From Apostichopus japonicus (Eukaryota; Echinodermata; Holothuroidea; Aspidochirotida; Stichopodidae), in NCBI RefSeq assembly GCF_037975245.1, contig NC_092571.1, forward strand, positions 16,735,917-16,799,916: a stretch of 64,000 bases of DNA, read 5' to 3'. Every line of letters starts with the position of its first letter. Within the stretch, counting starts at the first letter, position 1. Below the pieces are notes generated by a model that searched no databases, was not told the DNA's origin, and was given only the letters and a program-made list of their open reading frames with translations. Made by a program: the position numbers and the translations under genes. This document shows positions 1,474 to 60,900 of this stretch, one piece after another.

Positions 1474-4400
1474 ATGATGCCAGCTGTGTACTCTAGCTGT
1501 TTGAATAGGTTGATTTCATGCAACTCTTTGCAGTTGGCCTCTCGGATTCAAAGATCACATCATCTGTTGTCTGATGGTTACCCAGCATGTTTTGCAGCTC
1601 AAAGGACTAGGCTTAGAGGTAGCATTAAAGATGTACCAAGGACCTCCATAGCAAAGTTCAAGAGACACATTTTGGAGCAGAAGCATTATCAATCAAAATT
1701 GCTGATGTTTTCAACAACTTCTATGCTGTTGAATAGGGAAGTACCGCTCACATCTGAACAATATCCATCTCTCAAGAGAGGAAAGTTTGGCTCAGTTGAG
1801 GCAGATGATGTGTCCTTCTTTGAATCCATCCTTCCAGGGAGGGTGGTCACTGAACGAGATGAACTAGAAGGTGCTAACACTGATTGGCTCAGGATATGTC
1901 GAGGTACGTACAGTCAAAAAGATTGTGGAAACAAACGTTTAATATTTCTTTCGTCAAGGTATTTGGTATTTAAACCAAAGTATAGTCACACTTCGGTATC
2001 CTCTATTCATCTATAAAGGCCCTCTATTAAAGTTATAAGAAACAGGAAGGACTGTATTGTTTGACCTTTTTCTTGAAGTTGACAAAAAACTGAAATGTGA
2101 ACATGCCCATCATCCACAACTTTTCTATTTGACAATTCAACTTATTGTTTTCAAGGAGCTTTGTTGAAACTGCAGGGAGTCATTGATCCATTTTCTCAAT
2201 GCTATATTAAATGGTCAAGTTGCTATATGAGTGTAAAGATGTATGACAGTTTTCTACAGAGGAACTGTAACTAATCAATGAGAGTTCTAGAATCAGACCT
2301 TTTGGAAATGCTACACAAAATTTGGACCCAAAATTATTCCCTGCATTTAGTTAAATCTAATCAAGCACATTAAGTTAGTTCTAAGTTTTGTGACTTTCTT
2401 TTTACTAGGGCAGTCCAAGTTACTGTTGAAGCCCAAGACAACAGAGGAAGTGTCTAAAATTCTACAGTATTGTTATAAACGTAGCTTAGCAGTTGTGCCT
2501 CAAGGTGGAAATACTGGACTGGTTGGTGGCAGTGTTCCCGTGTTTGATGAGATCGTTATTTCAACAGCCCTCATGAATGAAATTATGGATTTTAATCAGC
2601 TGTCAGGTGAGGAAAAACGAGAGAAATTTACTGTTTGAAAGTTTGGTTAAATAATGGTTCTCAGTCAATTTTACATTGTTCATATACCTACAGTATAAGG
2701 AAATATTTATCTCAGAGACTTGAAGGTTGGTTTCTTGCTGGAAGCAAAGGATCCTATGCAGTCATGTTGGTATGTGTGTGTGCGTCTGACATTTGCTTGG
2801 GTGCATGATAACTCAACAACGGAGTGATGGATATTTGTCATATTTGCTATGTAGATGTATTGTAGTGAGAAGGTGTGCCCCATTGTTTTTGGTGCAGACC
2901 TTATGAATATTAATGAGGTAATGGGGTCAAACATAGAAATCTTTAAGGAGTGGGAATAAATATTATGATATTGGGTGATGGCATACAACACTTTAATATT
3001 CCACAAAATAAAGAACTGTGGTGCTGGTTGGGCTCTTGTTTTATCCAAATTTCACATCTGTTGAAGACTATAAAAACTGGTGTTACAACTATTGTCAGAA
3101 TAGAAATGTTTGGAATTGGTAAGAAAGTTAAAAACATCTGGTTGGATGTCATTACTGAAATTATATAACCTAGATGGTTTAAATGTTAAGTGTTGATAGT
3201 GATCATTTTTTTTTTCCTTTTTGAAAATTGCAGTAATTAGTTGAATTTTCTGGAGCTATTGTGTATCTCTCATGACAATTTTGCAATGAAAGCTAGGGGT
3301 TTGTGTTAAATTTTGCCTTAATCAGGTTGTAGTAAACTTAAATGATACAGGTAAGAATGGGTCCATGTATATTTGGAACCATCAAAACTTCTTTGAAAAC
3401 CCCCAAAAAGAACGTATTTCTTTCACCTATATTGAATAGCAGGAAGACCATTTATTGTGGATATTTGGGATCAAGGGTGTTGATAAATTGGATGTCAGAA
3501 CATGGAGCAGAGGTTGGGAGTTGCATGAAAATAAAAATGTAGGTATACACTTTCCGCAAACCTGAAGATTTCTACTCTGTGCAGGATGAATGAATTAGGA
3601 TGAATGACTTTATTGTCTCAACAGGAACGCTGACTTGCCAGGCAGGTTGCATATTAGAGAATTTGGATCAGTTTGTCCAGAACCAGGGATATACGATGCC
3701 GTTGGACCTAGGTGCTAAAGGAAGCTGCCACATTGGAGGAAATGTGGCAACCAATGCTGGTGGCATTCGCCTCTTGAGATACGGTTCCCTGCATGGAAAC
3801 GTCCTTGGAGTTGAGGCGGTGAGTAGGGGTATTAAACGTAGGTAGTTATTACGTTGACATAAAACCTCGGTAATAACAAGTAGGTGTGGGAACCAAGTTC
3901 TTGGGGTATGTGAGGATTGATAGAATAATAAGGAACCATTTTCTTAGATTGGATGATAAATGAGTGCAGCAGACCAGATTGTCACTGCCTTGTTAATAAT
4001 GAACTCATAATTTGCTAATCAATTTAGGATGATCTGAAAATTTGCGGCCCTACACGTCAGCTTTTCAGTCTTGTAGTATTGATAAAAATATTGCTTTGAA
4101 AGTTGTTCGAGTTTGATAATGACTACAAAGTATTTGATGCAATCTTTTGCGTGCTTGTTCATTGTTTTAAGGTTCTCGCTAACGGTGAAGTGTTCAACGG
4201 ATTGACAACTTTGAGGAAAGACAACACTGGTTATGATCTTAAGCAGCTATTCATCGGCTCGGAGGGAACGCTGGGAGTGATAACGGCCGTCAGTTTGTTA
4301 TGTCCACCAAAACCACAATCTGTGAATCTTGCCTTTCTTGGTAAGTGAGAGAGGTTGTTTCTTTGTTTGTTTTTTTTTCTTTGTCTGCAAAGTGTTAAAA

Positions 4401-7400
4401 TTTTCAGAAATTTAGAATGGTAGTAAAAACATACAGCTTTAGGCTGCTACAAATAGAATGACAACATATGAAGTGAAGTAGAAGAAAATAAAACTGTTGA
4501 CTATTGTGGAAGCAAGAAATCAATCAGGAGAGTAGAAACATGACAAGGAAGAGAAAAAAAACGATGAAAAGGAAGAATAAAAGCAATCAATAATACCATG
4601 ACAGAGGAGGAGAAGGAGGAGGAGAAGTAGAAGTAGAAGGACGAAATGGGAAGGGGAAAGAGGAGGAGAAAGAGGAGAAACTAATTGTAGAAAAGTCAGA
4701 TGAATATTAAGTGAGATGGAGAAGAGTACTTATGCTCATTTCTGGAAACAAGTATGGTGACATTGAACATTCATTCCTGACACTGCTCCATCTCAGGGAG
4801 GTGAATACGTGTAAATAAAAAAAATCTTTTCCAAAGACAATCAGGTGGGCTAAGAAACATTGCCAAATTTCCAGTATAAATGAATGCACATTTTTTAGAG
4901 TACTAGTATATACAAAAGAGGATGCAATAGAACGAGAGCTTGGAATAGAACATGATAAGCTGTCAGAGCATTTGTGTTTGGTATGTTAGTATCCATGAAA
5001 ATGTTTTTAAGAAGAAAAAAAGGGTTGAAGTTTTTCAGTCTTGTAGCATCAATGCAAGGCCTTCTCACATGACTATACATCAGCTACAGATAACCTCTGG
5101 ACATAGGTACTTTGTCACACCTACAGACCAAAGTCTTCTCAATTCCAACAGTTACTCCGGGTGGGGGGGGGTTGGGGAGTACAGTGCGCCACATTTATGT
5201 TTCCCCTGGAGGACTTCCCATTGTTTGTAGCCACAAACTGGTGAAATGCAACTATATTTACAAGTTAACGATGCATTTCCCTATTTATACACTTGTGTGA
5301 AAAGAGGCAATGAAGATAAAGTTCCTTTGCCCAAGGACACAATGTCAGGATCTAACCAGGACTCAAAACTTGCAACATCCTTAGATGACAAGTCCATTGT
5401 TTCACTATAAGCAACCACCTATTTAGGAGTGCGACCATCTGTTTACCTGAAACTGAAAACTTCTCTGCAGTACATTGAGATTATTCCAGACTGTTGAATT
5501 CTTTTTGACGATCAAATTTGGTAACTTTTTCTTGTGATGATTTGCATGGTCAATTAGTGGTCGAAAACTAGTATTTTTGCAATAACTTGAGAACAAAATG
5601 TTTGTCAAGGTTGGGAGTTACGCTATTGTAATCCAATGGTCGACCCGCATCTAGGTGACCTTTGACCTCAGGTTGACCTCCGGTGACCTTTGTCAGTTTT
5701 TTGGTTATTTGAATTTTTGTGGCCATAATCAGATCTCAAAGGTACCTTCTAATCAAAATTGTCCATGGTTGACCCCTGTGCGACTTTCATGTGCGAAGTT
5801 GTCAGAGATCAATTTTTGTTGTTGTCATATCCGTGTCCAGTTTTATGTGGTCATCACTTGCTTTGTATTTTTCTCGGCAGGTTGTAAAGACTTTGGCGCA
5901 GTTTTAGACACTCTCAAATTTGCAAAAACAAAACTAGGAGAGGTTCTGTCAGCATTTGAGGTACTGGACCATGAGTGCATGAAAGTAAGCATTTTTTTCT
6001 CATTTAACTATTATTTACAGAAAACCTGCTTTAAATTTGCGCTTGACTTTTTCTAACCAACAGGTTTGCACAACTACTGACAATTGTGGTCTTTTTTTCT
6101 GGCCTATCCATGTGCCTTAACAGTGAATTGTGAAGGGTGCATAAATATTTTCCAACTTTGATCCCCTTGCCTTATCTTTGGACAAATTTGTTTTAATTTT
6201 GCTTTGAAGGTTTATTTAGTTTCAATGCTTTCTCCTTCTAGTTACAAGTGACGTATGGAAATCACAAAAATCCCCTGGTGGGACCACCTCATGGATTCTA
6301 CGTCGTTGTGGAAACATCGGGCTCGAATGAAGATCACGACCAACAGAAAATGACATCATTCCTCGAAGAAGCCATGGAGAAGAGTCTTGTAGAAGATGGT
6401 ACCTTGGCAACCGACTCTGTTAAGTTTCAGGTATGTTTTTCACATAAATTTGTTAGAGGAATATTCAAGAAAAAATTAAGAATAAAGCAATAACCAATAG
6501 AGAGTTGATATTTTAAGAAAAATTAAGAACAAAGCAAATAACAAATAGAGAGTTTATATTTCTTACTTAAACTGTATCTCTTATTGTCTGGTAATGGGAC
6601 GCCTGTGACTAGGGACTATAGTCATTGCAGGAAGTGAGCTTCATGAATATTTTATAGGTTGTTACCATGGGAATGATTTTGGGAACACTTTTGGAACAAG
6701 TCGGTCGGTGAAGTATCAAACAATATTAAGGATAAAAACAAAGGTTACGTTCTGCAGGAACCAGTTTTTATTGGGGCGATGAGAGTTATTGGAGATTAGT
6801 ATAGGGGAGGTAAATTTTATCAGGGAACCTAGAGGGACACAAAAATATTTGTAGATATGCTAAACTGACCACAAATTTCAAAACTTTATAATGAATACAC
6901 TTTGGAAACATGTTTTTGTCAAATTTTGGTAACATCTGTCTGGGTGTTATTGTCAAGTTTGTTCTCGTTTGCCATGAGTGGTGATAATTTACATTGAATG
7001 ACGTAGTGTTCTGGAAATATTTTCTACCATCATGCTATCCTTCTTTTAACTTCATTTTACAGTCCCTAGATGTTCTTCGATACTATAAAAATTCTAATGA
7101 AAAGGTAGTTGTTAATGATCTAGACTTGTCAAGTTTTAATACTAAATGTGAGAGCAATTGACTAGATTTTCTTCGATACTATAAAAATTCTAATGAAAAT
7201 GTAGTTGTTGATGATCTTGACTTGTCAAGTTTTGACTTCAGAAAATTATGTCAAAGTTTTATAGCATTTGTATTTTTCCAAGTTGCTGACAATGTCTCGG
7301 CCATGAAAGTTTGATCATCAAATTAAATTAAGTCAATTGCTCGCACATTTAGTCTTCCGAATTAAGAATCTTAGGAAATGGATAATGCTCTCAAGTTGAA

Positions 7401-7949
7401 GAAAACTCCAGCTGGGATTTAAGTCATATCATATTGCAATCCTATAATTTGAGTCATATTCCATAGACTTGGTAGCTTTGAGATCTTTTCAAAGAACATC
7501 CTGTTGTTACCCCTTCCACTCATCAGACCCTTTGGCATCTACGAGAAGGCATCGCGGAGAGTCTCATGAGGGCAGGCGTCGTGTACAAATACGACTTTTC
7601 CTTCGCAGTCGAAGACTTTTACGATCTCGTCGAGGTGATGCGAACAAGACTCCGCGGCGAGGCTCTGCTCGTCTGCGGCTACGGGCACGTCGGAGACGGC
7701 AATCTTCACTTGAACATCGTGGGACCAACTTTGAGCAAAGAATTCCTGGCCTTGATCGAACCGTTCGTGTTCGATTGGACGGCATCCAAAGGGGGCAGCG
7801 TGAGTGCAGAACACGGGCTGGGTTTCAAGAAGAGGAATGCGATGGGGTTTAGTAAATCAGACAAACAGATTGAAATTATGCAAGAGATGAAACGATTGTT
7901 TGATCCTAAGTGTATTCTGAATCCGTATAAAACAATACCAGGTGTATAA
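1474..7949 (+). CDS. D2HGDH: D-2-hydroxyglutarate dehydrogenase, mitochondrial (7 exons)
   Basis: Oxidises D-2-hydroxyglutarate to 2-oxoglutarate in mitochondria using FAD and passes electrons to ETF. Exons joined by hand: 1474-1903, 2409-2606, 3625-3818, 4172-4340, 5881-5984, 6242-6430, 7527-7949. All introns are GT-AG, phases match and the total is 568 codons plus TAA (human about 521 aa). Residues 1-40 are Arg/Ser-rich and lack acidic runs, like a mitochondrial presequence. The FAD-binding PCMH fold covers about 147-330: [14 protein letters not shown] (173-186), [18 protein letters not shown] in exon 3, and [10 protein letters not shown] in exon 4. The C-terminal FAD-oxidase fold carries [13 protein letters not shown] (479-491) and SAEHG. 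His482, His489 and Glu523 align with human metal ligands His434, His441 and Glu475 at a constant offset of 48. Two Met codons open the frame; I chose the first. It looks intact. The GlcD/LDHD relatives fit less well because the similarity runs end to end with D2HGDH. Confidence 0.95.
4540..4700. repeat. Purine-rich (GA)n tract in D2HGDH intron 4
   Basis: About 160 bp almost purely of A and G on the plus strand, built from degenerate GAGGAGAAG and GTAGAAG units, inside the intron between exons 4 and 5. Simple-sequence expansion. No coding sense. Confidence 0.7.
5160..5420 (-). mobile_element. tRNA-type SINE, minus-strand copy
   Basis: Read on the minus strand this has a degenerate B box (GTTTTGAGTCC). 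It is followed by a body shared with the element at about 15150-15425: a TCCTTGGGCA-type segment, TTCATTGCCTCT, a GTGTATAAAT segment and TAACTTGTAAATATA, then a GCACTGTA motif. It sits in D2HGDH intron 4. The ends are approximate because no target duplication was clear. Confidence 0.6.
5656..5668 (-). promoter_or_regulatory. Perfect DR1-type nuclear-receptor motif
   Basis: TGACCTTTGACCT is the reverse complement of AGGTCA-A-AGGTCA, a perfect direct repeat with 1-nt spacing, the site type bound by HNF4, RXR and PPAR-type receptors. Two further TGACC half-sites follow within 30 bp. It lies in D2HGDH intron 4. Similar motifs occur in the tandem repeat at 33531-33965, so this may be repeat-derived sequence rather than a selected site. 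Confidence 0.3.
6468..6562. repeat. Short tandem duplication in D2HGDH intron 6
   Basis: Two adjacent diverged copies of a segment of about 50 bp (AAGAAAAATTAAGAA, AAAGCAA, AATAGAGAGTT motifs in the same order), just downstream of the exon 6 donor. Confidence 0.6.
7066..7353. repeat. Tandem duplication plus inverted repeat in D2HGDH intron 6
   Basis: A unit starting CTAGAT at 7066 is repeated from 7162 (period 96 bp; shared CTTCGATACTATAAAAATTC). Separately, 7141-7163 and 7331-7353 are inverted copies of 23 bp with one mismatch (ACTAAATGTG.GAGCAATTG type), which could form a stem with a loop of about 167 nt. Confidence 0.75.
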
Positions 7950-13254: not shown

Positions 13255-16200
13255 ATGCATGAGCTCTTTGCTCAAGTCCTCTCTCGGAGGGATCTCTCCA
13301 GGGCAGGCGATCTGTTCTCTCTCCCAGATGCTGCGATAGTGGATGACCTATCGGAAGCGTTGGACTGCATCGCTGATATCACCTCCTCCCCAGACTATGT
13401 TAAAAATGACAACGATCAAGCCGTAGTAGAGATATGTATCACACGAATTACAACTGCCATCAGGTATGAGAAATCTCTGCTGTCGTTAATTAGCAAAAGT
13501 TGCAAACAATCCCAGTTCACTTGGTGTAAGGTCTAATTAGTTTTTCAGGCAAATTTTCTGGTGCACCAAGTCTTGGTGTTTCTGTTCCAAAAAGATACGA
13601 TTAAGCCGGTATTTTTGCTGTATTACTTTCGAAAACAATCGTTCAGTCAAATCCACATTCCCCTTGTGTAGATCTTTCTGGGACCTCATTTGTTGGAAAA
13701 GGACCTTGTTTACAAATTTTTACAAGATGTACCATGTTGTGAGAGTGTGGTTATACATGGTAAGTTATCACATCACGATGAATGGAAATTTATCATATAT
13801 CTGTGTTTCAAATGGAACATATTCTGGCTTTAAATAAATGAGTGAAGAAGTAACGTTTTGAATATAAAGTTTTATATCTGTGACAATTTATTGGTTTTTT
13901 TTGTCTTTCAGAGATACTTCCTCCTTAATACTACATGTGAAAGCCCTGGTAAACCTTTGGGAAACCTGTTTACATTTCAATTTGAAGCCAGGCCAATCTG
14001 GAGAGGATCCACCTCATGCTAAGATAGCCTCTGATATCATGAGCTGTTTGTTTATGGTAAGGCATTCTTTGCACAGCACATAGTAGCTCAAAAGGCAATG
14101 GACTTGTTGCCCGGTTGTTATATAAACTTGATATGTTGCACATCTGTGTAGGATTTATTGCTTCCACAGAATTGTATGATATCTGCATTATTGTCTTTGT
14201 GAGTTGTCACTGTTGATCCTGAGTGACGTGGGATAGGATCCCTGTTAATCCTGAGTGACGTGGGATAGGATCACTGTTCATCCTGAGTAATGTGAGGTAG
14301 GATCACTGTTCATCCTGAGTGACTTGAGATAGGATCACTGTTGATTCTGAGTGATGTGGGATAGGATCACTGTTGATCCTGAGTGACGTGGAATAGGATC
14401 ACTGTTGATCCTGAGTGACTTGGGATAGGATCACTGTTGATCCTGAGTGATGTGGGATTCGATCACTGTTGATCCTGAGTGACGTGGGATAGAATCACTG
14501 TTGATCCTGAGTGAAGTGGGATAGGATCACTGTTGATCCTGAGTGAAGTGGGATAGGATCACTGTTGATCCTGAGTGATATGGGATAGGATCACTGTTGA
14601 TCCTGAGTGACGTGGAATTGGATTACTGTTGATCCTGAGTGACCTGGGATAGGATCACTGTTGATCCTGAGTGACGTGGGATAGGATCACTGTTGATCCT
14701 GAGTGATGTGGGATAGGATCACTGTTAATCCTGAGTGAAGTGGGATAGGATCACTGTTGATCCTGAGTGACTTGGGATAGGATCACTGTTGATCCTGAGT
14801 GACTTGGGATAGGATCACTGTTAATCCTGAGTGAAGTGGGATAGGATCACTGTTGATCCTGAGTGAAGTGGGATAGGATCACTGTTGATCCTGAGTGACG
14901 TGGGATAGGATCACTGTTGATCCTGAGTGACTTGGGATAGGATCACTGTTAATCCTAATTGAAGTGGCATAGGATCACTGTTGATCCTGAGTGATGTTGG
15001 ATAGGATCAGTGTTGATCCTGATTGATGTGGGATAAGATCTGTTTCAGTCTGTGTGGGAGTACGATTTCACAAGCTTTTGAGTATTTAGATTGGTGATTT
15101 CTGTGAAATAAGTGATTAGAAGGAGAAGTGTCTTCCTGTCTTGGTACATCTACCCACACAGTGTCGTGTAGTGTGTGGTCAGAATGGCTTTTGAGAGGCA
15201 ATGGGCTTGCGATGAAAGGATTGCAGGTTCGAGTCCTGGCCAGATCCTTATGCTTTGTGCTTGGGCACTTTATATTCATTGCCTCTCTTTACTCAACTGT
15301 ATAAATTGGGACCTGCAGGGTAACTTGTAAATATATATTTGCGTGTGCGGTCTGTGGCTGCACCTTATGAGAAGTACCTGCATGGGACAAGTAGATGTGG
15401 TGCACTGTAGTGATACAAGACTGAAAACCACTACACGAACGCTGGTTTGTCTGCCAGTCAGTGATTCAATGTTTCAGGATCGACAGCAAACGGTCGGTGG
15501 GTTCCCACTGATAAATTATATATTAGACTTATCAGTGCATAGACCAACCAATAACACTGCTACATTTAATGTCGTGGGCACATCATTCCCACACAATGGC
15601 ACACTTAATGCAAACGTTGAAAATAAATAAAATTCTGTTCTCTCCCTTCTAGCAAAGTTGCGGTGGTGGATTTGTCCTGCAACAGATTCTGGATGTGGCT
15701 GTTTGTTTCCTGCATCAAGGCAACAGAGAGATTACAAGAAATGTTACAAGCTACCTTGCCCTAGCAGCGATACAGAACATACAGCTGATGTCACTCCATA
15801 CATCATCTTTAATTAGTAGTGTACTGAAAGGTGAGACAGAAATGGCAAATTTTAACGATAATAAGAATAATAGTAATAATGATAATTAGTCTTATATAGC
15901 GCATAATCCAACTTGAACAGGTAGGTGCTCAATGCGCTTTACAGGTGACCAATCGATAACACTCAGAAAATAATTTTTTTTTAATGCCACGCTTTAAGCT
16001 CTTCGAGAGAGTCCAATGAACGTTAAACGAAAGTGAATTTCGCAAAGGAGGGGCTGTATGTTTTGAAGCTGTGATCACCCAAAGGTCTACATGTGAGGCA
16101 ATGAGAATTGAAGCTGGAAAAGATGAACAGTGTGAATGCATGGGTCTGTTTGTAAACTCTAAGATGAAAATTTAAGGATATGCTAGGAAAATTGTTAAGG

Positions 16201-22200: not shown

Positions 22201-24903
22201 GAGGTTGAATGGTGCAAAGGCATTGCATGCACAGTCTCTCTTTGCTCATACGTTCTAGGTCAGGACGGCTACCTAAAGATTCTGTTTGTTATGTAATTGA
22301 ATTAGTTTTTCACCCTGTTTGTGGTTTTTATCATCCTAGGCGACATCATCCAGTCCAGTATCTTTGGGAGACAAAGCTGTGCAGAGCCTAAAGAAGATTT
22401 GGGAGGAACACAAAAGTGCAGAAGGAAACATGACATTCCTAAAACTCATCACTCAGAATTTTCCATCTCCAAAGGTGAGCTTTAATTAAGACAAGTCCAT
22501 GCAAAGAGCTAGATTTTGTTTCTAAAGATGAAAAATAATTTTGTAATTTTATTTGAAGACAAAAAGTAGCAAATAAAATGACTGTGTTGGATCATAAGCA
22601 AACATTTGCTATCAGTTGAGTTTCTTTTCTGAAAGTTTTTCTTTCAAATGGTGCCCAATTTGGGCTTCGAAATTTGGGCTATATTTACTGGCTTATTGCT
22701 GGTGAATTTTGAGGTTTGCCAGTATGGGAAAAAGGCTCTGGTAGATATTAAGAACTTGAACACATTGAAATAGTTGGTAACAATTGTCAGTCTAAGAATG
22801 GATATGATTTATGTAAATAATATAAGCTCTGTATTACTGCTTATTAGTAGCAAATATTATTGGACCCCATGATTAATGTAACTAAGGTAAGCCCTGTATT
22901 ACTGCTTGGACTGCTACGATAAGCATGTTTTTGCCTCAGATGTTGCAGTTGTTTTTATGTCCTCCATTCATTTGTATGTAGTCTCAATCAGACTGGGGAG
23001 CGGGGGGGGGGGGAGTACTCGCTTTGATGGGTGTAGATAAGCTCCAGTTGCCAAAGTGTCAAAGGTGTTAACTGAAACACGCAAGCTACAGACATTCTTT
23101 TTCTTACTGATTATTTGTTTTGCTTCCCTCTACTCAAGGTTCAACAGTCCTTGGTGCAACAACTGTGCAATGCCAGTTACTACGATCTCTTTATGTACGA
23201 CTCAGAACTGGGTGCCTGGAGCTGTTTCGTCTGTAGTAACCCTAGCAAACTTGGTAAGTTGAGAAGTTTGGGAATGTCAAGGAATGGGGTAAGGCTGGAT
23301 AGGTCAAATAGTAGAGAACAGAACTTGTTTTTCCTGAAATGACCAATTGCAATTCAATTCAAGCCAGTAATTTTGGTGCTCATTGAGAAAATTTGTGAGC
23401 AAATTCCCCAGTCTGTGTTTTGCTCATAATTCTTTTATGTCGTTTATGATGGAAATGTTATGCCACAGACTTGTTGTGGTATCCTTTTACTTTTAATGCA
23501 AACTACTTGTGTTAAATGAAGAAAGATGCAGATACACAGAGGAAGTGTAAAAGAAATTTCTTTAAATTATGCATCGCTGCATAGGTATTAGAAACTGGGG
23601 CCTATCGTCTAACGTTGAGTGGAGATTTTATGCCATTTCTTCGCAAAGAGGTCAATTTTCTTTTCTCTCAGATGCTCTGTCAGCAGACAGGCCATTAATT
23701 GAAGGTCAGTTGAAGGAGAAGAAAGTGAGGTGGAAACTATTTAAAAGATGGAGGACACAGTACTTCACTCTGGCAGGAGAAAGACTATTTCCTAGAGGGA
23801 GTGTAAGTATCATTTAGATAAATAGGAGGAGGGGGTGGTGGGGGCGGGGGTAGAGAGGACACAGTACTTTACCCTGGCAGGAGAAAGACTATTTCCTAGA
23901 GGGAGTGTAAGTATCATTTAGATGAATAGGAGGAGGGGGTGGTGGGGGCGGGGGTAGAGAGGACACAGTACTTTACCCTGGCAGGAGAAAGACTATTTCC
24001 TAGAGGGAGTGTAAGTATCATTTAGATGAATAGGAGGAGGGGGTGGTGGGGGCGGGGGTAGAGAGGACACAGTACTTTACCCTGGCAGGAGAAAGACTAT
24101 TTCCTAGAGGGAGTGTAAGTGTCATATAGGTGAATAGGAGGAGGGGGGGGGGGGGGTGGTAGTGTGGACCCAGTACTTAACCTAGCAGGAGAAAGACTTT
24201 TTCCCAGGGGAAGTGTAAGTATTATATAGATGAATGGGGGGGGGGGGGGCAGTAGGGTGGATCCAGTGCTTAACCTAGCAGGAGAAAAATTTTTCAGAGG
24301 GAGTGTATTATTAAGTATTAGAATGGATGAATGGGAGGGAGGGAGGGAGGAAAGGGGGGGGGGTTAGGATTGGGGGTGGTTTGAGAAGGACCCAGTCTTT
24401 CATGGTAACATGGGAAAGACTCTTCCCAGCGAGTGTTTAAGTAATAGTTTGGAGGGGTAGGGTAGGACCCAGTATGCCCATCTAGTAGGAGACATACTTG
24501 GCATTGGTTGGATGGGTAGGGGAAAGTGTACGACCCAATACCTCAGCCCTTATACCCCGCACTCACACGAGGGCATAGATGGAGAGGTTACCATGGAGAC
24601 ACATGCATCCAGACTTAAAGCTGCTGTATAAATACTCATCACTCGTTAATAACTTACGAATTATGTTTTTTTAATAACCAGGACAAGTCAAATTCAATAC
24701 CGATCGAAATCAGCAAGGTACGTAGCGTGAAGACCGTTGGGAGAAGGAGAGACAGAACGATTCCCAAAGCGTTTGAGATCTTCACAGACGACCACAAGAC
24801 GTACATGTTTAAAGCCAAGGACGGCAGCAATGCCGAACAGTGGGTGCAGTGTCTGACCTTAGCCATGCACAAAGGAAAACACACGGAAGATGTCACAAAA
24901 TAG
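13255..24903 (+). CDS. VEPH1: Ventricular zone-expressed PH domain protein / melted homolog (12 coding exons)
   Basis: Melted/VEPH1 proteins are membrane-associated PH adaptors that modulate insulin/FoxO, TOR and TGF-beta signalling in flies and vertebrates. Coding exons: 13255-13463, 13912-14056, 15653-15830, 16785-16948, 17559-17771, 18602-18816, 19368-20176, 21379-21521, 22340-22474, 23139-23253, 23672-23802, 24682-24903. All are GT-AG, phases close, 892 codons plus TAG (human about 833). Residues 1-374 match the helical-repeat melted region, with [17 protein letters not shown] and [11 protein letters not shown] almost unchanged from vertebrates. Residues 375-644 (one 809-bp exon) are Ser/Pro/Arg-rich and probably disordered. 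Residues 645-775 are a conserved middle module. The PH domain spans about 780-886 ([52 protein letters not shown]). The start matches the family MH.LF. Oddity: the PH strand after TLAG reads ERLFPRGS, shorter than vertebrate versions, and the downstream intron repeats this exon end in tandem. Confidence 0.95.
14206..15040. repeat. 32-bp minisatellite, about 26 units, in VEPH1 intron 2
   Basis: The unit is TCACTGTTGATCCTGAGTGA followed by CGTGGGATAGGA, with point variants and a constant 32-bp spacing over 835 bp. Each junction contains GGATCA-CTGT-TGATCC, a 6-bp stem with a 4-nt loop, so the array is a regular ladder of potential small hairpins. Many units carry TGACGTG, a bZIP/CRE-like half-site. 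There are no unique spacers, so it is not a CRISPR array. Confidence 0.95.
15150..15425 (+). mobile_element. tRNA-type SINE, plus-strand copy
   Basis: Carries a consensus Pol III B box (GGTTCGAGTCC, about 15227) preceded by a tRNA-like head. It is followed by the same body as the minus-strand copy at 5160-5420 (GCTTGGGCAC, TTCATTGCCTCTC, CTGTATAAATTGGGACCTG, TAACTTGTAAATATA, GTGGTGCACTGTA). Located in VEPH1 intron 2, directly after the 32-bp minisatellite. Ends are approximate. Confidence 0.65.
15855..15945. repeat. Short dispersed repeat with AGCGC/GCGCTTTACA ends
   Basis: An AATAAT run, then CTTATATAGCGC, a short body and ATGCGCTTTACAGG. It is laid out like the element at 8665-8760. Lies just inside VEPH1 intron 3. 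Confidence 0.45.
17440..17520. repeat. C-rich pyrimidine tract before VEPH1 exon 5
   Basis: CCCTCCCC-type repeats about 40-120 nt upstream of the exon 5 acceptor (17558). The strand-complement is G-rich. Simple-sequence expansion that may contribute to acceptor context. Confidence 0.6.
18470..18600. repeat. (ATT)n microsatellite abutting the VEPH1 exon 6 acceptor
   Basis: A TTA/ATT-repeat run continues directly into the splice acceptor TATTATAG (ending 18601). There is no ordinary polypyrimidine tract. The repeat itself occupies the branch-point and tract positions. Confidence 0.8.
20806..20868. repeat. Short TTCATGGTGTG tandem repeat
   Basis: Four to five copies of a unit of about 15 bp containing TCATGGTGT, in VEPH1 intron 7. 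Confidence 0.7.
21779..22265 (-). mobile_element. Truncated Penelope-like element tail, copy A
   Basis: On the minus strand it begins with a peptide [17 protein letters not shown], resembling the end of a GIY-YIG endonuclease domain as found at the C-terminus of Penelope-like retroelements. It continues through a C/T-rich 3' region and ends with GATCCTGCTAGGATCGAAAC, the stem and GAAA of a hammerhead-like motif. A second, 5'-shorter copy lies at about 30478-30796. The hammerhead core here is mutated (CAGAAGA at 21822-21828 instead of CTGAAGA). Non-coding remnant in VEPH1 intron 8. Confidence 0.55.
23751..24510 (+). repeat. 104-bp tandem array seeded by the end of VEPH1 exon 11
   Basis: Unit starts fall at 23751, 23855, 23959 and 24063 (exact 104-bp spacing), then decay through about four degenerate copies to about 24510. 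The first unit is the real exon end (23751-23802) plus donor GTAAGT. Units 2-4 repeat the coding sequence for [16 protein letters not shown] with only two synonymous differences, the GTAAGT donor, and a G-rich tail (GGGGGTGGTGGGGGCGGGGG). Later units lose the exon similarity and gain poly-G. Confidence 0.9.
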
Positions 24904-42900: not shown

Positions 42901-45900
42901 GCAAGTGGATATACAATAAGTTCAGAAATAAAACCGAACTGCTTTAACCAGATCTGACTGGGGGTCTCTGAGCTAACTTTGCTTTCCAGCCCTTTTCTGG
43001 AGGAATTCTTCAACATTTAAGAAATATTTCTAGGTTGATCAAAAGTGGTACTGTCATGTAACCTGCACTCAGTCTGCTAAAAGTTTCTCGTTAACAGGTT
43101 TTGTGCTGATGTTTGGTGCAATATGATACTAATATATGATACTACATAGTATATACTACACATATAATATATATACTATACATATACAATCTAAACATAC
43201 TAAATATACATTATATATAAGATAATATATAATATGATACTAATATATGATACTACATAGTATATACTACACATATAATATATATACTAAATATATACAA
43301 TATATGTATACTACACATACAAATATGTAATATATATCATATAAGATAATCTGTTATAAAATGATACTAAAATATGATACTTTATAATATATATATATGC
43401 AATCTAAACATACTACATATACATTATATATATATCATATACGATAATATATAATAATATGACACTAATATATGATACTGCATAGTATATACTACACATA
43501 TAATATATATACTAAATATATACAATCTATACATATTACATATACATATATATAATATAAGATAATCTGTAATAAAATGATACTAAAATATGATACTATA
43601 TAATGTATATATATACAATCTAAACATACTACATACACATTATATATATATATATATCATATATGATAATGTATAATAATATTATACTAATATATGATAC
43701 TACAAAATCAATACATACTACATATACATACATTTAATACATATATATCATATACAATTATATGTAATAATATGAAAATAATAGCTGGAACAATGTCAAA
43801 GTCTTCATTGGAGTCATAAAGAATTTTGAAAACTTCCGGTTTCCAAATGTTATAATAATTGAAATGTAATCATTAGTTGCTGAATACTCGGTTTTCATTT
43901 GGTGAACAAAAATCTAACTGTAAATCTAAGCTATAATTTGCAATCTTAGTGAGATTATTAAAGACTAAACAAAACGTCACGTTACAAACCTCCAAGCTTT
44001 TGCTCCTCTTGCTGGGCTTTTCCTCAGGGCCACTGTGCTGAACTGCTGCTCCACCAGAAGACTCCGACATATAAACCTCAAAGTCCTCACCGACCGAACC
44101 AGGAATTGCTGGGGACTTTTTGAGTACCCTCTGTAACCAGAGAAACAAGGTTTTCTAGTTAATAGCCTACATGGTACATAGAATATATTCCATGATACAC
44201 ACTTATTACAATCAAGACACCTTTTATATAAAAGACGCCTCTATAAAAGTCACTCACATGAAGAAATCATATCACTGTTTTTTATTCTCCTTCAAATACT
44301 TCCACGTGAATGGCTGACTAATGTTTTATCGTCAAGAAAACCTAACCAATCCGAAACAGAAAAACTGACTGGGATGGCGAGAAATGTATTTCAAGAGAGA
44401 GCAGTTTGCCTTATTTATATAGATATGTACATATATATGCATATATATATCTATTAAAGGTTACTCATACAGTGAAGGTGCTACCCTATAATGTCAAGAA
44501 TAAGGGGTTCCACTTGCAATCCTTGTCACAGCATTTCATGAGAAAAAACTTTGGTCAGCTAAATATCCAAACAGGTTTTATGTGAATTCATTAAATAAGC
44601 TCCAACTGGGATCTCCACTAGATAACAACTACTTCAGTGACATTTCTATGGAACCAACGTCATCAACCTTGGAATCGACTCTGACCGTTTACCTGTTTCA
44701 TGATATCCATTATTTGTAGTACCCTGGTCGGTCCATCGGTCAACACCCTCACGCTGAGACTACCGGACCCAGGCAGGTTCTTCTGCCTCTCCAGGGCCAT
44801 CTCTGGAGGGACCTTGTCAAGTAAGAGGTCCCTGGATGGTTGTGCTGGACCCAGGACCATCTCAGCACCTATCAAAGTAAGATTTGGATTTTCTTCTTTT
44901 ACTAAGCACTTATTTATATTCCATCATTCTTAAATATTTGGCTCTTTTAACCAGATGATTTTTTGCTGGAACATCATAAATAATAACGTTGTGAGCAAAA
45001 AACAAAGTAATGAAATATGGTTAATCATTTGATGTTCACAACCAACTACAACTGCAAGATGCTTTAATAGGTGATTAATATATGTGTACCCGAATAAAAT
45101 AACGTGAGGGAAAATTAACAATCCCTGTATTACAAAAAGAAAAGAAACATTTGTGGACCTAACAGATATACAGTATAAATGCTTCCAAATGGTACTGTAT
45201 AGTTTCAGGCATATTATGAAGCTGACATACATGATGGGCATTATGTTTCAACATTATTTCAACAATTTTTTAATTCTTCATGATTCAAGGGATACACAAG
45301 AAATCATAGGATTATCAGGTGAAAGCAGAGATCATCAAAATCAAAATTGTATTTATATAGTTTTGTTTTTTAAACTTTTTGAACTTACCTTCCTTCAAGC
45401 CAAGGACTTTATATTTTGGTTGAACAGCAAAACTTGAAAATAGACATCTTAAAGTTCCATCCTGTAAGCCAAACCAAACAGCAAGTTTATTATTTTAAGT
45501 TAATACATAAGATGCTAATAATGGTGAGGGCAGTGCCATTCAACTTTTTAATGATAATTCAACTTATCTGCTATGCTGGAAAGTTGAAATATTATTACTT
45601 TTTACTTATTATCGTTGATTCTAATGGGACAAAAAAAAGAGTCAGATTGTAGGAATTACTGTGTTAGTATAACATAGCATGGATAGAGAAATACCCTCCC
45701 TTAATCCTAACCACATCTTACCTTTAGTAATTACTGTGCTAGTATAACATACTGTAGCATGATAGAGAAATACCCTCCCTTACCCCTAACCACATCTTAC
45801 CTTTAGTAATTACTGTGCTAGTATAACATACTGTAGCATGATAGAGAAATACCCTCCCTTACCCCTAACCACATCTTACCTTTAGTAATTACTGTGCTAG

Positions 45901-48900
45901 TATAACATACTGTAGCATGATAGAGAAATACCCTCCCTTACCCCTAACCACATCTTACCTTTAGTAATTACTGTGCTAGTATAACATACTGTAGCATGAT
46001 AGAGAAATACCCTCCCTTACCCCTAACCACATCTTACCTTTAGTAATTACTGTGCTAGTATAACATACTGTAGCATGATAGAGAAATACCCTCCCTTACC
46101 CCTAACCACATCATACCTTTAGTAATTACTGTGTAAGTATAACATAGCATGGATAGAGAATTACCCTCCCTTACCCCTAACCACATCATACCTTTAGTAA
46201 TTACTGTGTAAGTATAACATAGCATGGATAGTGAATTACCCTCCCTTACCCCTGACCACATCATACGTTTAGTAATTACTGTGTTAGTATAACATAGCAT
46301 GGATAGAGAATTACCCTCCCTTATCCCTGACCACATCATACGTTTAGTAATTACTATGTTAGTATAACATAGCATGGATAGAGAATTACCCTCCCTTACC
46401 CCTGACCACATCATACGTTTAGTAATTACTGTGTAAGTATAACATAGCATGGATAGAGAAATACCCTCCCTTACCCCTAACCACATGTTACCTTTACAAA
46501 TGAGGTACCAAGATGGAATTTGGAATCTCTTTGTTATCCACATAAGAATCATATTGGTTACCACTGGTTACTCCTTTCAGTACAAAGATATATATTGTGG
46601 TGGAGGCATGTCCCAGAATTTAGAGCAAGTGAAGTGGGGGGGGGTGGAAGGTCACACAACATTGATCTTGCGAGCCACTGAATTTTGTGACCTGATGCAG
46701 TGATACACTGTCAACAGTCATATGGGGTTTCAGGGGAACAACTGGGGTTGTAAATGGCACACCTGCCTGGCACCTCCACAAAACAAGAAGGCTTGATAAA
46801 GTGATCATTCACCAACAATCATCACACATACAAAGTAAGAATACTGTGGTCTCACTAAACTAAATGTCTGTGTGTGCGTACCTTTTGAAAGGTCCATGTT
46901 TGCGTAGACTTTCTGTTGTTATCCGGCGACTTCAGCACCAAGGTACTGGTCCCGTTGTAGACTGGGCCGCTGGAAATGATGTCAAGGACCATACACTGAT
47001 GATTGTGGCGACTGAGGGAGTGAGGGTCCCTGGGAGGGGTGAACGCTTCATTCTGTAGCATTCCCGTGGTTGTCATTCGCCACAGTTGGCTACGTTTACC
47101 TTGCTCCTGAAAATAGTGAAAACGATTCGTTGCGATTGGGGAAGGAAACAAACCATGTCAAAATGCATAAAGACATTTCTACTTAGATTCCTCATGAAAA
47201 ATGAGATAGCTCGACACGAGAAGCTACACAGCAACATCACACAATGCAAATTTTAGGATTTAATTTTTCGTTTTTAATAGCTGCTTCCTAAACATAGGCT
47301 ACTAGCAGTATGCATGCTGCCTATATTAATATCTTCATACAAAGCATTTAAAATTTTATATAATTCTCACATTACTTCTCTCACAACCAACGGGACGCCA
47401 TGCAGTAACGGCATTATCGACTAAACCAGAATAAAATCATATTTAAGGAACAGATTGAGCAACATCACAAGTCTTAAGAATGAGTCGATTTTTCAGAAGT
47501 TTGTGGTAGGTCTGTGGCGACTAAACATTTCTCGTAGGATGGCCAAAACTATCCTGTCCGAGGTCAAACGCTACACAATCACCTCGTTGCACCCGCCACT
47601 AACTTTGCATTCCAGACAAAACTTTGAAAGACGAAATGAAAAGAAGACAGGTCTGTCCAGGAGACTGCCGACAAACTCGCCTTTGAGTTATTTGAATTAT
47701 TTGGATATCTAGGAGTATTCTTGCTTTTTGTTTTTAATATTGCTATTACCTTTTTTTCTCTGCTACTTTTGCTAATAATTTCTTCCCGCTTCCTATATCT
47801 GTTAAACATGAGTACAGAGAGCCAGGTTAGGCCCCACTGAATATTATGTGACTGGGCCCTCTTTTCTGAAGTCTTCAGGTTTTCTTAAGTATTTTATGAA
47901 AAATGAGAATATCTTATTCTTTATCCCTTACTTCCCTGGGCTCCCTAATTGACCTCTTGCCTGCTGCTGTGACCCCCCCCCCCCCTCTCTCTCACTCTCG
48001 TCTCACCGGGCCTGGTCTTGTGAGACCGAATAGTTACCTTCTTTCGGAGCACTACCGGAGAGCCAGGGTGAGGGACATCCAGCACCAGGTTGGAACCTGA
48101 CCATATTTGGCTACCAAATAATGTCGACTTTAATGGTGTCTGTGAGTCAGCAGGGCTGAAATTAAGATGTCAATAATTTATACATATAAATTTATACACA
48201 GAAGCAGAACCTTGAACTGAAAATCTTTTCGTTGACAATCAATATAAAATCATCCACATCAAGCAAATTCCAGAGAAAAACGTAAGCTCCATTAATACTG
48301 AAGTCTACTTTGGAAAATGGTTGCTATTCTGAGCATTAATCCCATGCAAAATGTTATTGGACATTGTTTGAAATAATCCATCTTCAAAAAATGTTACTGT
48401 AAGGGTACTACCATAGATTTTCAAATCCCTCAAATTAGAGGCAGAGAAGGCAAAATTGTTTTACCTTTCAAATGTTTGTGACATGGCGATGTAGATGAAA
48501 TTCTCATAATAAAGACTCTCTCCCGTCTCCAGCTTATTGAGGTTGTAGCTAGCGAGGGATCCACCTTGTACCTCGCAGGTTATTAGGTTAGGCAAGATAG
48601 GTTCATCAAAGGCATAGGGTACTGAAAGAGAGAACCAATAGGCATGTGAGTTGGTTACCATGGTTACAGGCAGTGCCAAATCGTTAACATATCATCAACT
48701 AATAACTGGTGTTGAAATTTAAATTTTTTTGTTATTGTTACTTAAAGATTTCTCTCTAACATAGAAACAATTTGTTTGCATCGATAACATTGTTTATGTC
48801 TCAGAAATGAATTTGAAAAGATCTGAAGTACATTCCACAATTTCTACTAGGGAATCACTTTTTCTTTAAATTCATTCTCTTCTGTTTTTTTTTTGGGGGG

Positions 48901-57900: not shown

Positions 57901-60900
57901 GTAGTCAGGTAGGAGGGAGGGGGAGGGGAAGAGAACGAACTGAATAACACTTCCATAATGATTACCCCAGGATAACTAGGTCAATCTCTGATGACATACA
58001 CAAAATCTCAAGGAAAAGTTAGTAGTGATATTTATAACCCAGGTTATGATTCCAAACTTGAAACTGATCACACAAGTGCAGGATGAAATAGAATGTGCTG
58101 GTGAATTTGGGAACACATACTGAAGGAGGTAAAGAGGATGTGTCTGGAGCAGTGGGTATTCAACCCAGGCTACCTCAGGCGTGTATCAACCCAGGCTACC
58201 TCAGGAGTGTATCAACCCAGGCTACCTCAGGAGTGTATCAACCCAGGGTACCTCAGGAGTGTATCAACTCAGGCTATCTCAGGAGTGTATCAACCCAGGC
58301 TACCTCAGGAGTGTAGCAACCCAGGCTACCTCAGGAGTGTATGCAACCCAGGCTACCTCAGGAGTGTATCAACCCAGGCTACCTCAGGAGTGTATCAACC
58401 CAGGCTACCTCAGGAGTGTATATATTATGCTGAGCTATCCCAGCCCTTTCAAAGAAAAAAGAATAATCAACAAAACAACAAACAACATAAAAGTATTTAC
58501 CTATTAGGTGCTGTCGTTACGGTAGCAAACCAGAGTCTGCAGCCGGTGAGATTTCTCAATGCAAACGGAACAAATGGAGACCTTTTCAGTGAGCTGCAAT
58601 AGAGATTAAATTTACAAGAAATTAGTTGCTTAAAGAAGATACACCTGCTTGTAACACTGAAGACCATGAAACATGTCTTAAAATCATGTCAAGTAATTTC
58701 TGAAAGAATTTAAACTTCCCCAACTTGAGGGATGGGGGAGGGGGTGCGGCAGCAGTTAATGAGAATAAATCATTCAAGATAAAACATAAAAAGAAGACAT
58801 GAATCGTTCTTTACCTGTCTTTTGCCCGAGACTTGTAGTAGTCTTCAGTCCAGCTGTTTTTAGTATTGGTGTACAAATCCAGCATCTCTCTGGTGATGTT
58901 GATGTTCAAACAATCGTCGACTATTGAGGGGAAAAAAACCAAGACAAAAGAAAAATATTTTCCCCGTATCAGAGTAAATCAAGTGCCGTAGATACAGATA
59001 AATTTGTAAGTTTAAAAGTAACTGACAGCTTCAATACGAAGTGCTCACCATATTTATAGACATGTCTGCCCCCTCTCCCATTTTCCAGCCTCTCAAAGAA
59101 AAGTAGAGATGACAGAAAAGTGACTATATATTAAAATGATCAATCTTGTGCTCTCTCTGGCTTCTACCTTAATTGAATCATAGGGAAATTGGAAAGTTGA
59201 TGGACAAACCCCTGGGGACCTGGCAACTTTCCTTACAAAAAGTAAAGGTAATTTAATTGGTATTCTCAAACTGCTTAGAAAAGGCCTATGCTGTGACCCA
59301 AGATGCTGCCCCCGGCTTCGCCCCTTACGTTCCTAGTTAAGATACATAGATTACATAACATACATATATATTACATAACCATACATATATATTACATAAC
59401 AAACATATTGATAATATAACATACATATTGATTACATAACATACATATACATTACAAGGTGACTTTACCTTTCATCTGGATGAAGAGTTTTTCTGGGTAC
59501 ATTTTCCTCTCCTCTTGCTGTAGCCATTCGACATTACATCTGAGATTAGAGGTAATCATAGAGCAAAATTGAGATTGTAGAAAGTAGGATGGGCTATTTC
59601 ACCAAGGGACAATCCACAGTGGACTTTTTTCCCCCCTCTAAAAGTGGTCTTCCAAATAGTAATAAGAGTATAAATTGAACGTAGGTACTAATTGGCCTGC
59701 CACTTAACTGTAAAATGTACCCCTAATGCATATGCAGCTGCTTGGCATTGTTAAATGACCTCCTTCGAGACCAATTATTAATATTTATTATTGTTTTCTA
59801 TACATGGACGCCACTGAACCACTTCTGACAGTACCATATTTGGAGTTACCGGCAGTTTTATGAACCGGCTACTCAGGATAGCAAACATCGAGCACAAAGA
59901 GTAACCACCACAGGAACAAGTCAATGAATAATAATTTCACTTTCAATTAACTTTATCGAGATCTGGTGAATTGTTTGGGATCATGTAGCCATGGTGTCCA
60001 TGTAGTCATGGTGACCATGTTGTCATGGTAACATATCAAAGCTATGCTTCTCTGCTGAGTTGGTGTGGTAATCCTGTCACATTCTTTGAAGAGCCAAACT
60101 TTAATCAGTAAGTAAATAATCATTTCCAGGTAATCATTTATTTTTCATTTTTTTGTGTAGCACTTTTGAACGTTATTAATTTTGTCTCTTATAACAAACT
60201 AAAACTCCTGCGTTAAAAAACAAAACTGCTATGCATCTCTGCACTTGAATTTCAACTTGACCGTTTTGCATTAGCATTATGCAATGCGATACCGAATAAA
60301 TTTATTCACTGACTTCATTACTATGTTACTCTTAGCATGTCCTAGCAGAAAGGCACTATAAGAAAATGGTTACTGCTATAGGGTAGATTTTGCTTTGTAG
60401 ATAAATTTAGTGGGATTTACTACATAGAAACCCAACATACTATGATCTCGTTTTAATGTACAGCCTAAATCAAACTCTTTGAGTTCACTTCTACATCAGT
60501 TTATGGCTTGAGTACCTTTTAGAAGGTTTCCATATTTCCCTGGTCCCAAATAATAACAAACCAACTCTAAATGCACACGATACAAACTAGTATACCTACG
60601 ACCTGAAGGGTAACAGGTATTGGTAATATGTTATGATCTGTTATCTAAGACAGTCACGGTATCATCCATGCATGATAAACGGAAATCTCTAAGCCCACTG
60701 GAAAGAATCTAACTAGAACAGCTTGATGACAACCCCTCTTGGACAACACTTATTACTCTCTTGGCGAGAGACTCACCTCCACGGCTCTATGAACGGTTCC
60801 CAGCCAGATATGGCTCTGTTGTAATAGTCTCCTGATAGGACGCCGTAAGCGCGACCTTCCAGATTTTGTAACAGCTTCTGGAAAATGTCCAAATTCTGGA

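Follow-up and report, generated by a model that had tools for sequence, protein, structure and literature searches.

The question raised by this locus is how the end of an exon, together with its splice donor, came to stand several times in a row inside a gene, and what such an arrangement would mean for the splicing of that gene. The window, by which we mean the whole stretch of 64,000 nt analyzed here from Apostichopus japonicus (C11:16735917-16799916, + strand), contains a VEPH1/melted-like gene whose penultimate coding exon runs into a tandem array between 23751 and about 24500. Its 104-bp unit is composed of the final 52 nt of the PH-domain exon and the initial 52 nt of the following intron. 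We consider it probable that a minisatellite captured this exon-intron boundary, that such captures are recurrent in a minisatellite-rich genome in which donor-spanning arrays are tolerated, and that the donors downstream of the first one are decoys. The features on which the argument rests are the following, in window coordinates.

23672-23802, + strand: penultimate coding exon of the VEPH1/melted-like gene, 131 nt, with the start of the PH domain and the acceptor CAG at 23669-23671 (from sequence, translation, and the PF00169 match of the spliced product)
23751-23854, + strand: unit 1, made up of the genuine end of the exon (23751-23802), donor 1 at 23803, and the initial 52 nt of the intron
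23855-23958, + strand: unit 2, with donor 2 at 23907
23959-24062, + strand: unit 3, identical to unit 2, with donor 3 at 24011
24063-24164, + strand: unit 4, with the exon half of units 2-3, a diverged intron half (14-G run), and donor 4 at 24115
24165-24262, + strand: unit 5, diverged, with a 1-nt deletion in the former frame and a fifth intact GTAAGT at 24215
24263-24385, + strand: unit 6, decayed, GTAAGT lost (score reached by 0 of 500 shuffles)
24386-24464, + strand: unit 7, decayed, GTAAGT lost (score reached by 0 of 500 shuffles)
24465-24500, + strand: unit 8, a probable remnant (score reached by 1 of 500 shuffles)
24682-24903, + strand: last coding exon, with the remainder of the PH domain and the stop (translation, Pfam match)

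The claim of an earlier note that unit 1 is the genuine exon end was borne out, since joining 23802 to 24682 yields an unbroken PH domain (Pfam PF00169, E 2.7e-7), and among the spliced translations the complete domain was obtained from donor 1 only. A PDB match of the same region, to a Src-associated adaptor protein, was weak (E 0.0003). Genome searches covered the 671.6-Mb assembly of 35 contigs, where both PH exons matched nowhere else and the array sequence was found at no second place, although masked or missing stretches and gaps could hide copies. In the same assembly, the COX1 on contig C35 makes most sense, judged by COX1 motifs, when translated with the echinoderm mitochondrial code (table 9) rather than with tables 4 or 5, so that the genome is most likely that of an echinoderm. 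The host gene has an N-terminal region from about 13.25 kb, whose exons were read by eye, and the PH domain at its C-terminus. We take it to be VEPH1/melted, a putative name given by eye from the sequence, with no database match to VEPH1 itself. The name is based on this reading together with the architecture and the absence of paralogs described for VEPH1 in PMC6734325, and with the single genomic place of the PH exons observed here.

Tandem Repeats Finder (TRF) reported a period of 104 with 4.8 copies at 23751-24247 (score 819), and units 1-4 are near-identical, which agrees with the amplification of an exon end and its donor at 104-bp spacing that had been noticed before. Within the 52-nt exon half, unit 1 differs from units 2-4 at two positions (TTC/TTT and ACT/ACC), both synonymous as previously read, and units 2-4 are identical there. 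Within the 52-nt intron half, compared without gaps, unit 1 differs from units 2-3 at one position and unit 4 differs from the others at 11-12. The array had been thought to decay straight into poly-G after unit 4; instead, diverged units follow, of which unit 5 (from about 24165), like units 6 and 7, scores above 500 of 500 shuffles and the probable unit 8 above 499 of 500. The repeat signal ends past unit 8, as the score of 24530-24660 was reached by 261 of 500 shuffles. An assembly artefact might be suspected from the identity of units 2 and 3; however, misassembly of one unit cannot yield the diverged units 4-8, and similar arrays stand at other loci, so that this explanation is highly improbable. 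Expansion of a protein repeat was rejected, because the unit length of 104 cannot be divided by 3 and there is an in-frame TAG.

To place the array in its genomic context, exon edges from two Pfam families served as a control, namely all 24 PH matches and 110 of the 134 kinase matches, giving 134 loci; the 24 kinase rows left out were in many cases long and apparently intronless, and some were last rows. Arrays made of an exon end plus its donor were found at 5 of the 134 sampled loci, with 31-141 bp units in about 4-19 copies, a count obtained by eye from loci that may not all have an intron at the zone examined. Two of the five are copies of one gene, about 91-95% alike, so that four independent cases stand beside the window array. 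The five loci are as follows.

L014, 1640-2218: PH exon end plus a GTACTT donor, 141 bp, 4.1 units, two sub-units, 8 GAG/GTAC junctions
L044, 1854-2354: kinase exon end plus GTAAGT, 31 bp, 15.9 units
L067 with L218, C11 at about 6.327 Mb: CDK11 copy A, 70-bp unit of 63 nt of exon plus GTGAGCA, 12.0 units (TRF)
L068 with L220, C11 at about 9.613 Mb: CDK11 copy B, 70-bp unit of 63 nt of exon plus GTGAGCA, 11.0 units (TRF)
L109, from 93 into L219: kinase exon end plus GTAATC, 42 bp, 19.3 units of mixed types

The identity of the duplicated gene as CDK11 was established by the donor 1 product joined to the next two exons, which aligns gap-free to human CDK11B across the junction (E 7.2e-73), and the exon peptides of L109, L044, and L014 match the kinase, kinase, and PH families, respectively. 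In all five loci, the translated read-through of donor 1 reaches a stop inside the first repeat. In the related kinase exon L045, the donor position matches that of L044, and there is no array. A sixth case (L105) is weak, with two diverged copies. It was among nine donor-zone repeat matches in the 134 loci (4/80 + 5/54), which comprised the five donor arrays, L105, and three gene 3' ends that have a stop instead of a donor (L004, L049, L052).

When the exon was compared with a consensus of gap-free copies (7 of 9 at L067, 9 of 10 at L068, and 23 of 23 at L109), two differences were found at each of these loci; all six are synonymous, and with the window the count is 8 of 8. As a general rule this fails at L044 (4 differences in 14 nt) and at L014, where the copies differ from the exon at codon-changing sites too, as expected of free copies.

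The opposite edge of the exons gave a different picture. Arrays across the acceptor were found at 0 of 134 acceptor sides, compared with 5 of 134 donor sides in zones of one size (451 nt); three repeat matches in acceptor zones (L176, L193, L208; 3/80 + 0/54) did not, by eye, span the acceptor. This asymmetry is compatible with selection, though it is not significant, and selection would fit it because an array at a donor leaves the right site first. The difference might also be taken as a sign that arrays are seeded at donors, for example by R-loops or transcription-linked replication stress. Selection against acceptor arrays would explain it equally, and the genome-wide counts gave this proposal no support: GTAAGT was not enriched in periodic arrays (9781; the reversed hexamer gave 11491, and a further permutation 8323 as such and 10344 reversed). 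These are match counts on both strands, defined by three occurrences at spacings of 30-60 and dominated by long arrays, and they give no hint that donors are favored as starting points of arrays. Further, in the 80 kinase pieces the minisatellite cover is 8.5% in the downstream zones, counting the donor arrays, and 4.6% in those upstream, so that the 3.7% of donors lying in arrays is not above the 4.6-8.5% cover of nearby introns. Donor seeding is therefore very unlikely, and a high minisatellite load, tolerated at donors, is the simplest explanation. In the window itself, minisatellites make up about 8% by a hand-made list that includes two 3-bp arrays; the large ones are at 14207-15040 (32 bp x 26), 45650-46496 (79 bp x 11), and 58160-58421 (26 bp x 10).

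Concerning the history of the array, the final 52 nt of the exon and the initial 52 nt of the intron would have been duplicated in tandem, and older copies would have decayed in the direction of the acceptor. When the exon halves are named L and the intron halves R, L1 differs from L2-L4 at 2 of 52 positions, L2, L3, and L4 are identical, R1 differs from the identical R2 and R3 at 1 of 52, and R4 differs from the others at 11-12 (ungapped). This copy table fits a putative ancestral order L1 R1 L4 R4 in which the segment R1-L4 was repeated, giving L1 R1 L4 R1 L4 R1 L4 R4. The fresh block would then stem from a recent expansion from two to four units of an intron half plus the next exon copy. 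The copies would be alike without gene conversion, because the real exon stood outside the expansion. The earlier note was correct that the copies resemble each other more than the exon; its further suggestion of homogenization after the exon had diverged is superfluous, given that an out-of-register expansion from two to four units explains the table.

The older units bear on which member changed. The readable parts of units 5 and 6, compared by eye, match the copies, with ACC rather than ACT and GATGAA rather than GATAAA; the TTC/TTT site adjoins an alignment gap in these units, and its state is not readable there. Since the older units agree with the copies, it is apparently unit 1 that has changed at ACC/ACT and GATGAA/GATAAA. 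Depending on how they are aligned, unit 5 and the exon are separated by 9-10 substitutions, and third codon positions account for 8 of these (P 0.001-0.003 against one third). On these small numbers, silent changes seem to have arisen in the exon, with the copies retaining older states.

The donors themselves were more numerous than the four positions listed earlier. Equal strength of the donors had been proposed, and a predicted pairing with the 5' end of U1 of -8.3 kcal/mol at every one of them agrees with this; the number is five, since the exact GTAAGT at 23803, 23907, 24011, and 24115 is joined by the one at 24215, which has the same predicted pairing. The motif is absent from units 6-8, and the corresponding site of unit 6 has a predicted pairing of -2.4 kcal/mol.

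23815-23817, + strand: in-frame TAG met on skipping donor 1 (translation)
23788-23795, + strand: TTTCCTAG, a short string that resembles an acceptor, 7 nt upstream of donor 1, with further copies in units 2-4

Use of donors 2-5 leads in every case to one common stop, the fifth codon past the exon end, which would lie 89, 193, 297, and 397 nt ahead of the junction. Under the 50-55 nt rule for nonsense-mediated decay, which is derived from vertebrates, an mRNA with a stop at these distances is likelier to be degraded than to give a stable truncated protein. Thus, the expectation that a downstream donor would read into an in-frame TAG holds, and the expected product with a truncated PH domain is the less likely outcome. 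Splicing into the array, whether its units then served as cassette exons or formed new introns, may also be conceivable, since units 1-7 each hold a short pyrimidine-plus-AG string resembling an acceptor (TTTCCTAG in units 1-4, and CTTTTTCCCAG, TTTTTCAG, and CTCTTCCCAG in units 5-7).

Based on these reading frames, donors 2-5 would act as decoys whose products carry an early stop and are probably destroyed, and the array would persist because donor 1 is presumably used often enough. The gene could instead make deliberate use of the donors, with copy number and G-runs setting the share of unproductive mRNA and so tuning the gene product, or with a PH-truncated form being made. Five donors are intact, including that of the old unit 5, the stop lies at least 89 nt before the junction in each longer form, and human IFI6 is said in PMC4526556 to use two downstream repeat units as donors, giving three mRNAs. 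Against this, GTAAGT was lost in units 6-8, and the presence of comparable arrays in unrelated genes argues for a mutational origin; we regard deliberate use as unlikely.

The G-rich intron half could provide a reason for a preferred use of donor 1.

23826-23850, + strand: G-run cluster after donor 1, G4Hunter 2.76

Clusters of this kind also follow donors 2-5, at 23930, 24034, 24137, and 24236 (G4Hunter 2.72-2.76). In PMC12062376 and PMC8150589, G-runs are described as enhancers when downstream of a donor and as silencers within an exon. The number of exonic G-runs would be 1 when donor 1 is used, versus 5, 9, 13, and 15 for donors 2-5, and the clusters could make donor 1 the preferred site. 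A similar situation was reported for TP53 exon 6, where a weak native donor is followed by G-runs and then by a strong cryptic donor, and deletion of these G-runs moved use downstream (PMC12062376). The two systems share G-runs between the native and the downstream donor; they differ in that TP53 has a weak native donor and a single strong cryptic one, assayed in a human minigene, and TP53 is a model only for why donor 1 might win. The motif TCATTT suppressed a downstream donor in a human reporter according to PMC1877881; it is present after donors 1-3, yet it is common, with 55 occurrences on this strand of the window.

Several results weigh against the reading of a captured boundary with tolerated decoys. 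Predicted local accessibility is lowest at donor 1 (0.02, versus 0.16, 0.16, 0.13, and 0.04 at donors 2-5), which would favor the downstream donors if accessibility mattered, and the predicted U1 pairing does not distinguish among the five. What is proposed for the G-runs at donor 1 does not extend to the other donor arrays, which have G4Hunter values of at most 0.6, compared with 2.76 here. The difference between donor and acceptor sides is not significant (two-sided Fisher test, p 0.060; p 0.12 if the CDK11 pair is treated as one), which counts against donor seeding as well. With regard to the silent changes of the exon, the excess of third positions between unit 5 and the exon reaches only P 0.02-0.055 against one half, which is the expectation if silent sites change in both lineages and other sites only in the copy; between unit 5 and unit 2, third positions account for 6-7 of 8 differences (P 0.003-0.02 against one third and 0.035-0.14 against one half).

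The same G-rich half also raises the possibility that G-quadruplex (G4) instability made and maintains the window array. With its G-rich unit and high G4 propensity (G4Hunter about 2.7 in units 1-5, and 2.72-2.76 in the clusters after donors 1-5), the array resembles minisatellites of the CEB1 kind, and absence of Pif1 promotes the instability of the G-rich CEB1 array in yeast, as stated in PMC2673046. The cluster of units 1-3, however, consists of three runs of 5 G rather than four separate runs, and the low values of the other donor arrays led us to reject G4 as their general cause. For the window array, this explanation is conceivable and on balance doubtful.

The capture of a boundary by a minisatellite has counterparts in the literature. 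Human IFI6 (6-16/G1P3) carries a donor-bearing minisatellite (Turri et al. 1995, as cited by later papers), which likewise is a tandem array whose units supply several splice donors. As in IFI6, the window array begins within the exon and continues into the intron, with the donor consensus in units 1-5. It differs from IFI6, in which two downstream units were reported as used donors giving three mRNAs (PMC4526556), in that its 104-bp units are half exon and half intron, its longer forms would carry stops, and its downstream donors are candidates. Internal tandem repeats of human segmental duplications, mostly minisatellites and some of them at exon-intron boundaries, can alter splicing, according to PMC2812944; that work concerns differences between recent paralogs, whereas the present cases are a gene found at a single place and other genes of one echinoderm genome. 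Intron gain by tandem duplication is similar in that exonic sequence is duplicated in tandem and units 1-5 each have a donor and a short acceptor-like string; in contrast, the window array lengthens an existing intron, and its acceptor-like strings are putative sites. A literature search in a limited library yielded nothing closer than the cited papers for donor arrays or for an echinoderm case. The window array is thus of the kind known from IFI6 and from repeats at exon-intron boundaries, an unusual but explicable structure.

The choice among identical 5' splice sites is an old question that has been approached with built duplications. The five sampled loci, CDK11 included, with about 4-20 near-identical and regularly spaced donors, are natural experiments on donor choice, and this recurrence is of greater interest than the single case, as donor choice is directly testable by RNA-seq. 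In addition, the copies of some arrays seem to preserve earlier synonymous states of the exon and would form an internal fossil record. Copy number differs between the two CDK11 copies of one assembly. A far-reaching extension would be that a small percentage of exons in this genome terminate in arrays built from their own 3' end and donor, that acceptors are spared, and that copy number sets unproductive splicing, making such arrays fast-mutating heritable tuners of expression genome-wide; we think this improbable.

Some further observations were made at the sampled loci. CDK11 copy A contains a second array in the same intron (41 bp x 28), and TRF finds none in copy B. The joined piece of L109 holds additional copies at about 1.6-1.8 kb and 2.7 kb. 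At L004 (1786-2186) and at L049, L052, and L054 (past about 2157), coding 3' ends including the stop are partly repeated downstream of the gene, and in the kinase-like family of L049, L052, and L054 a piece around QDLEQLIQT recurs several times.

Upstream of the VEPH1/melted-like gene, the + strand of the window looks gene-like by eye at about 2351-7946, and this neighbor reads like what we presume to be a D-2-hydroxyglutarate dehydrogenase. Elsewhere in the assembly, contig C29 has five COX1 matches at about 14.7-31.2 kb, in addition to C35, which are perhaps duplicated mitochondrial sequence.

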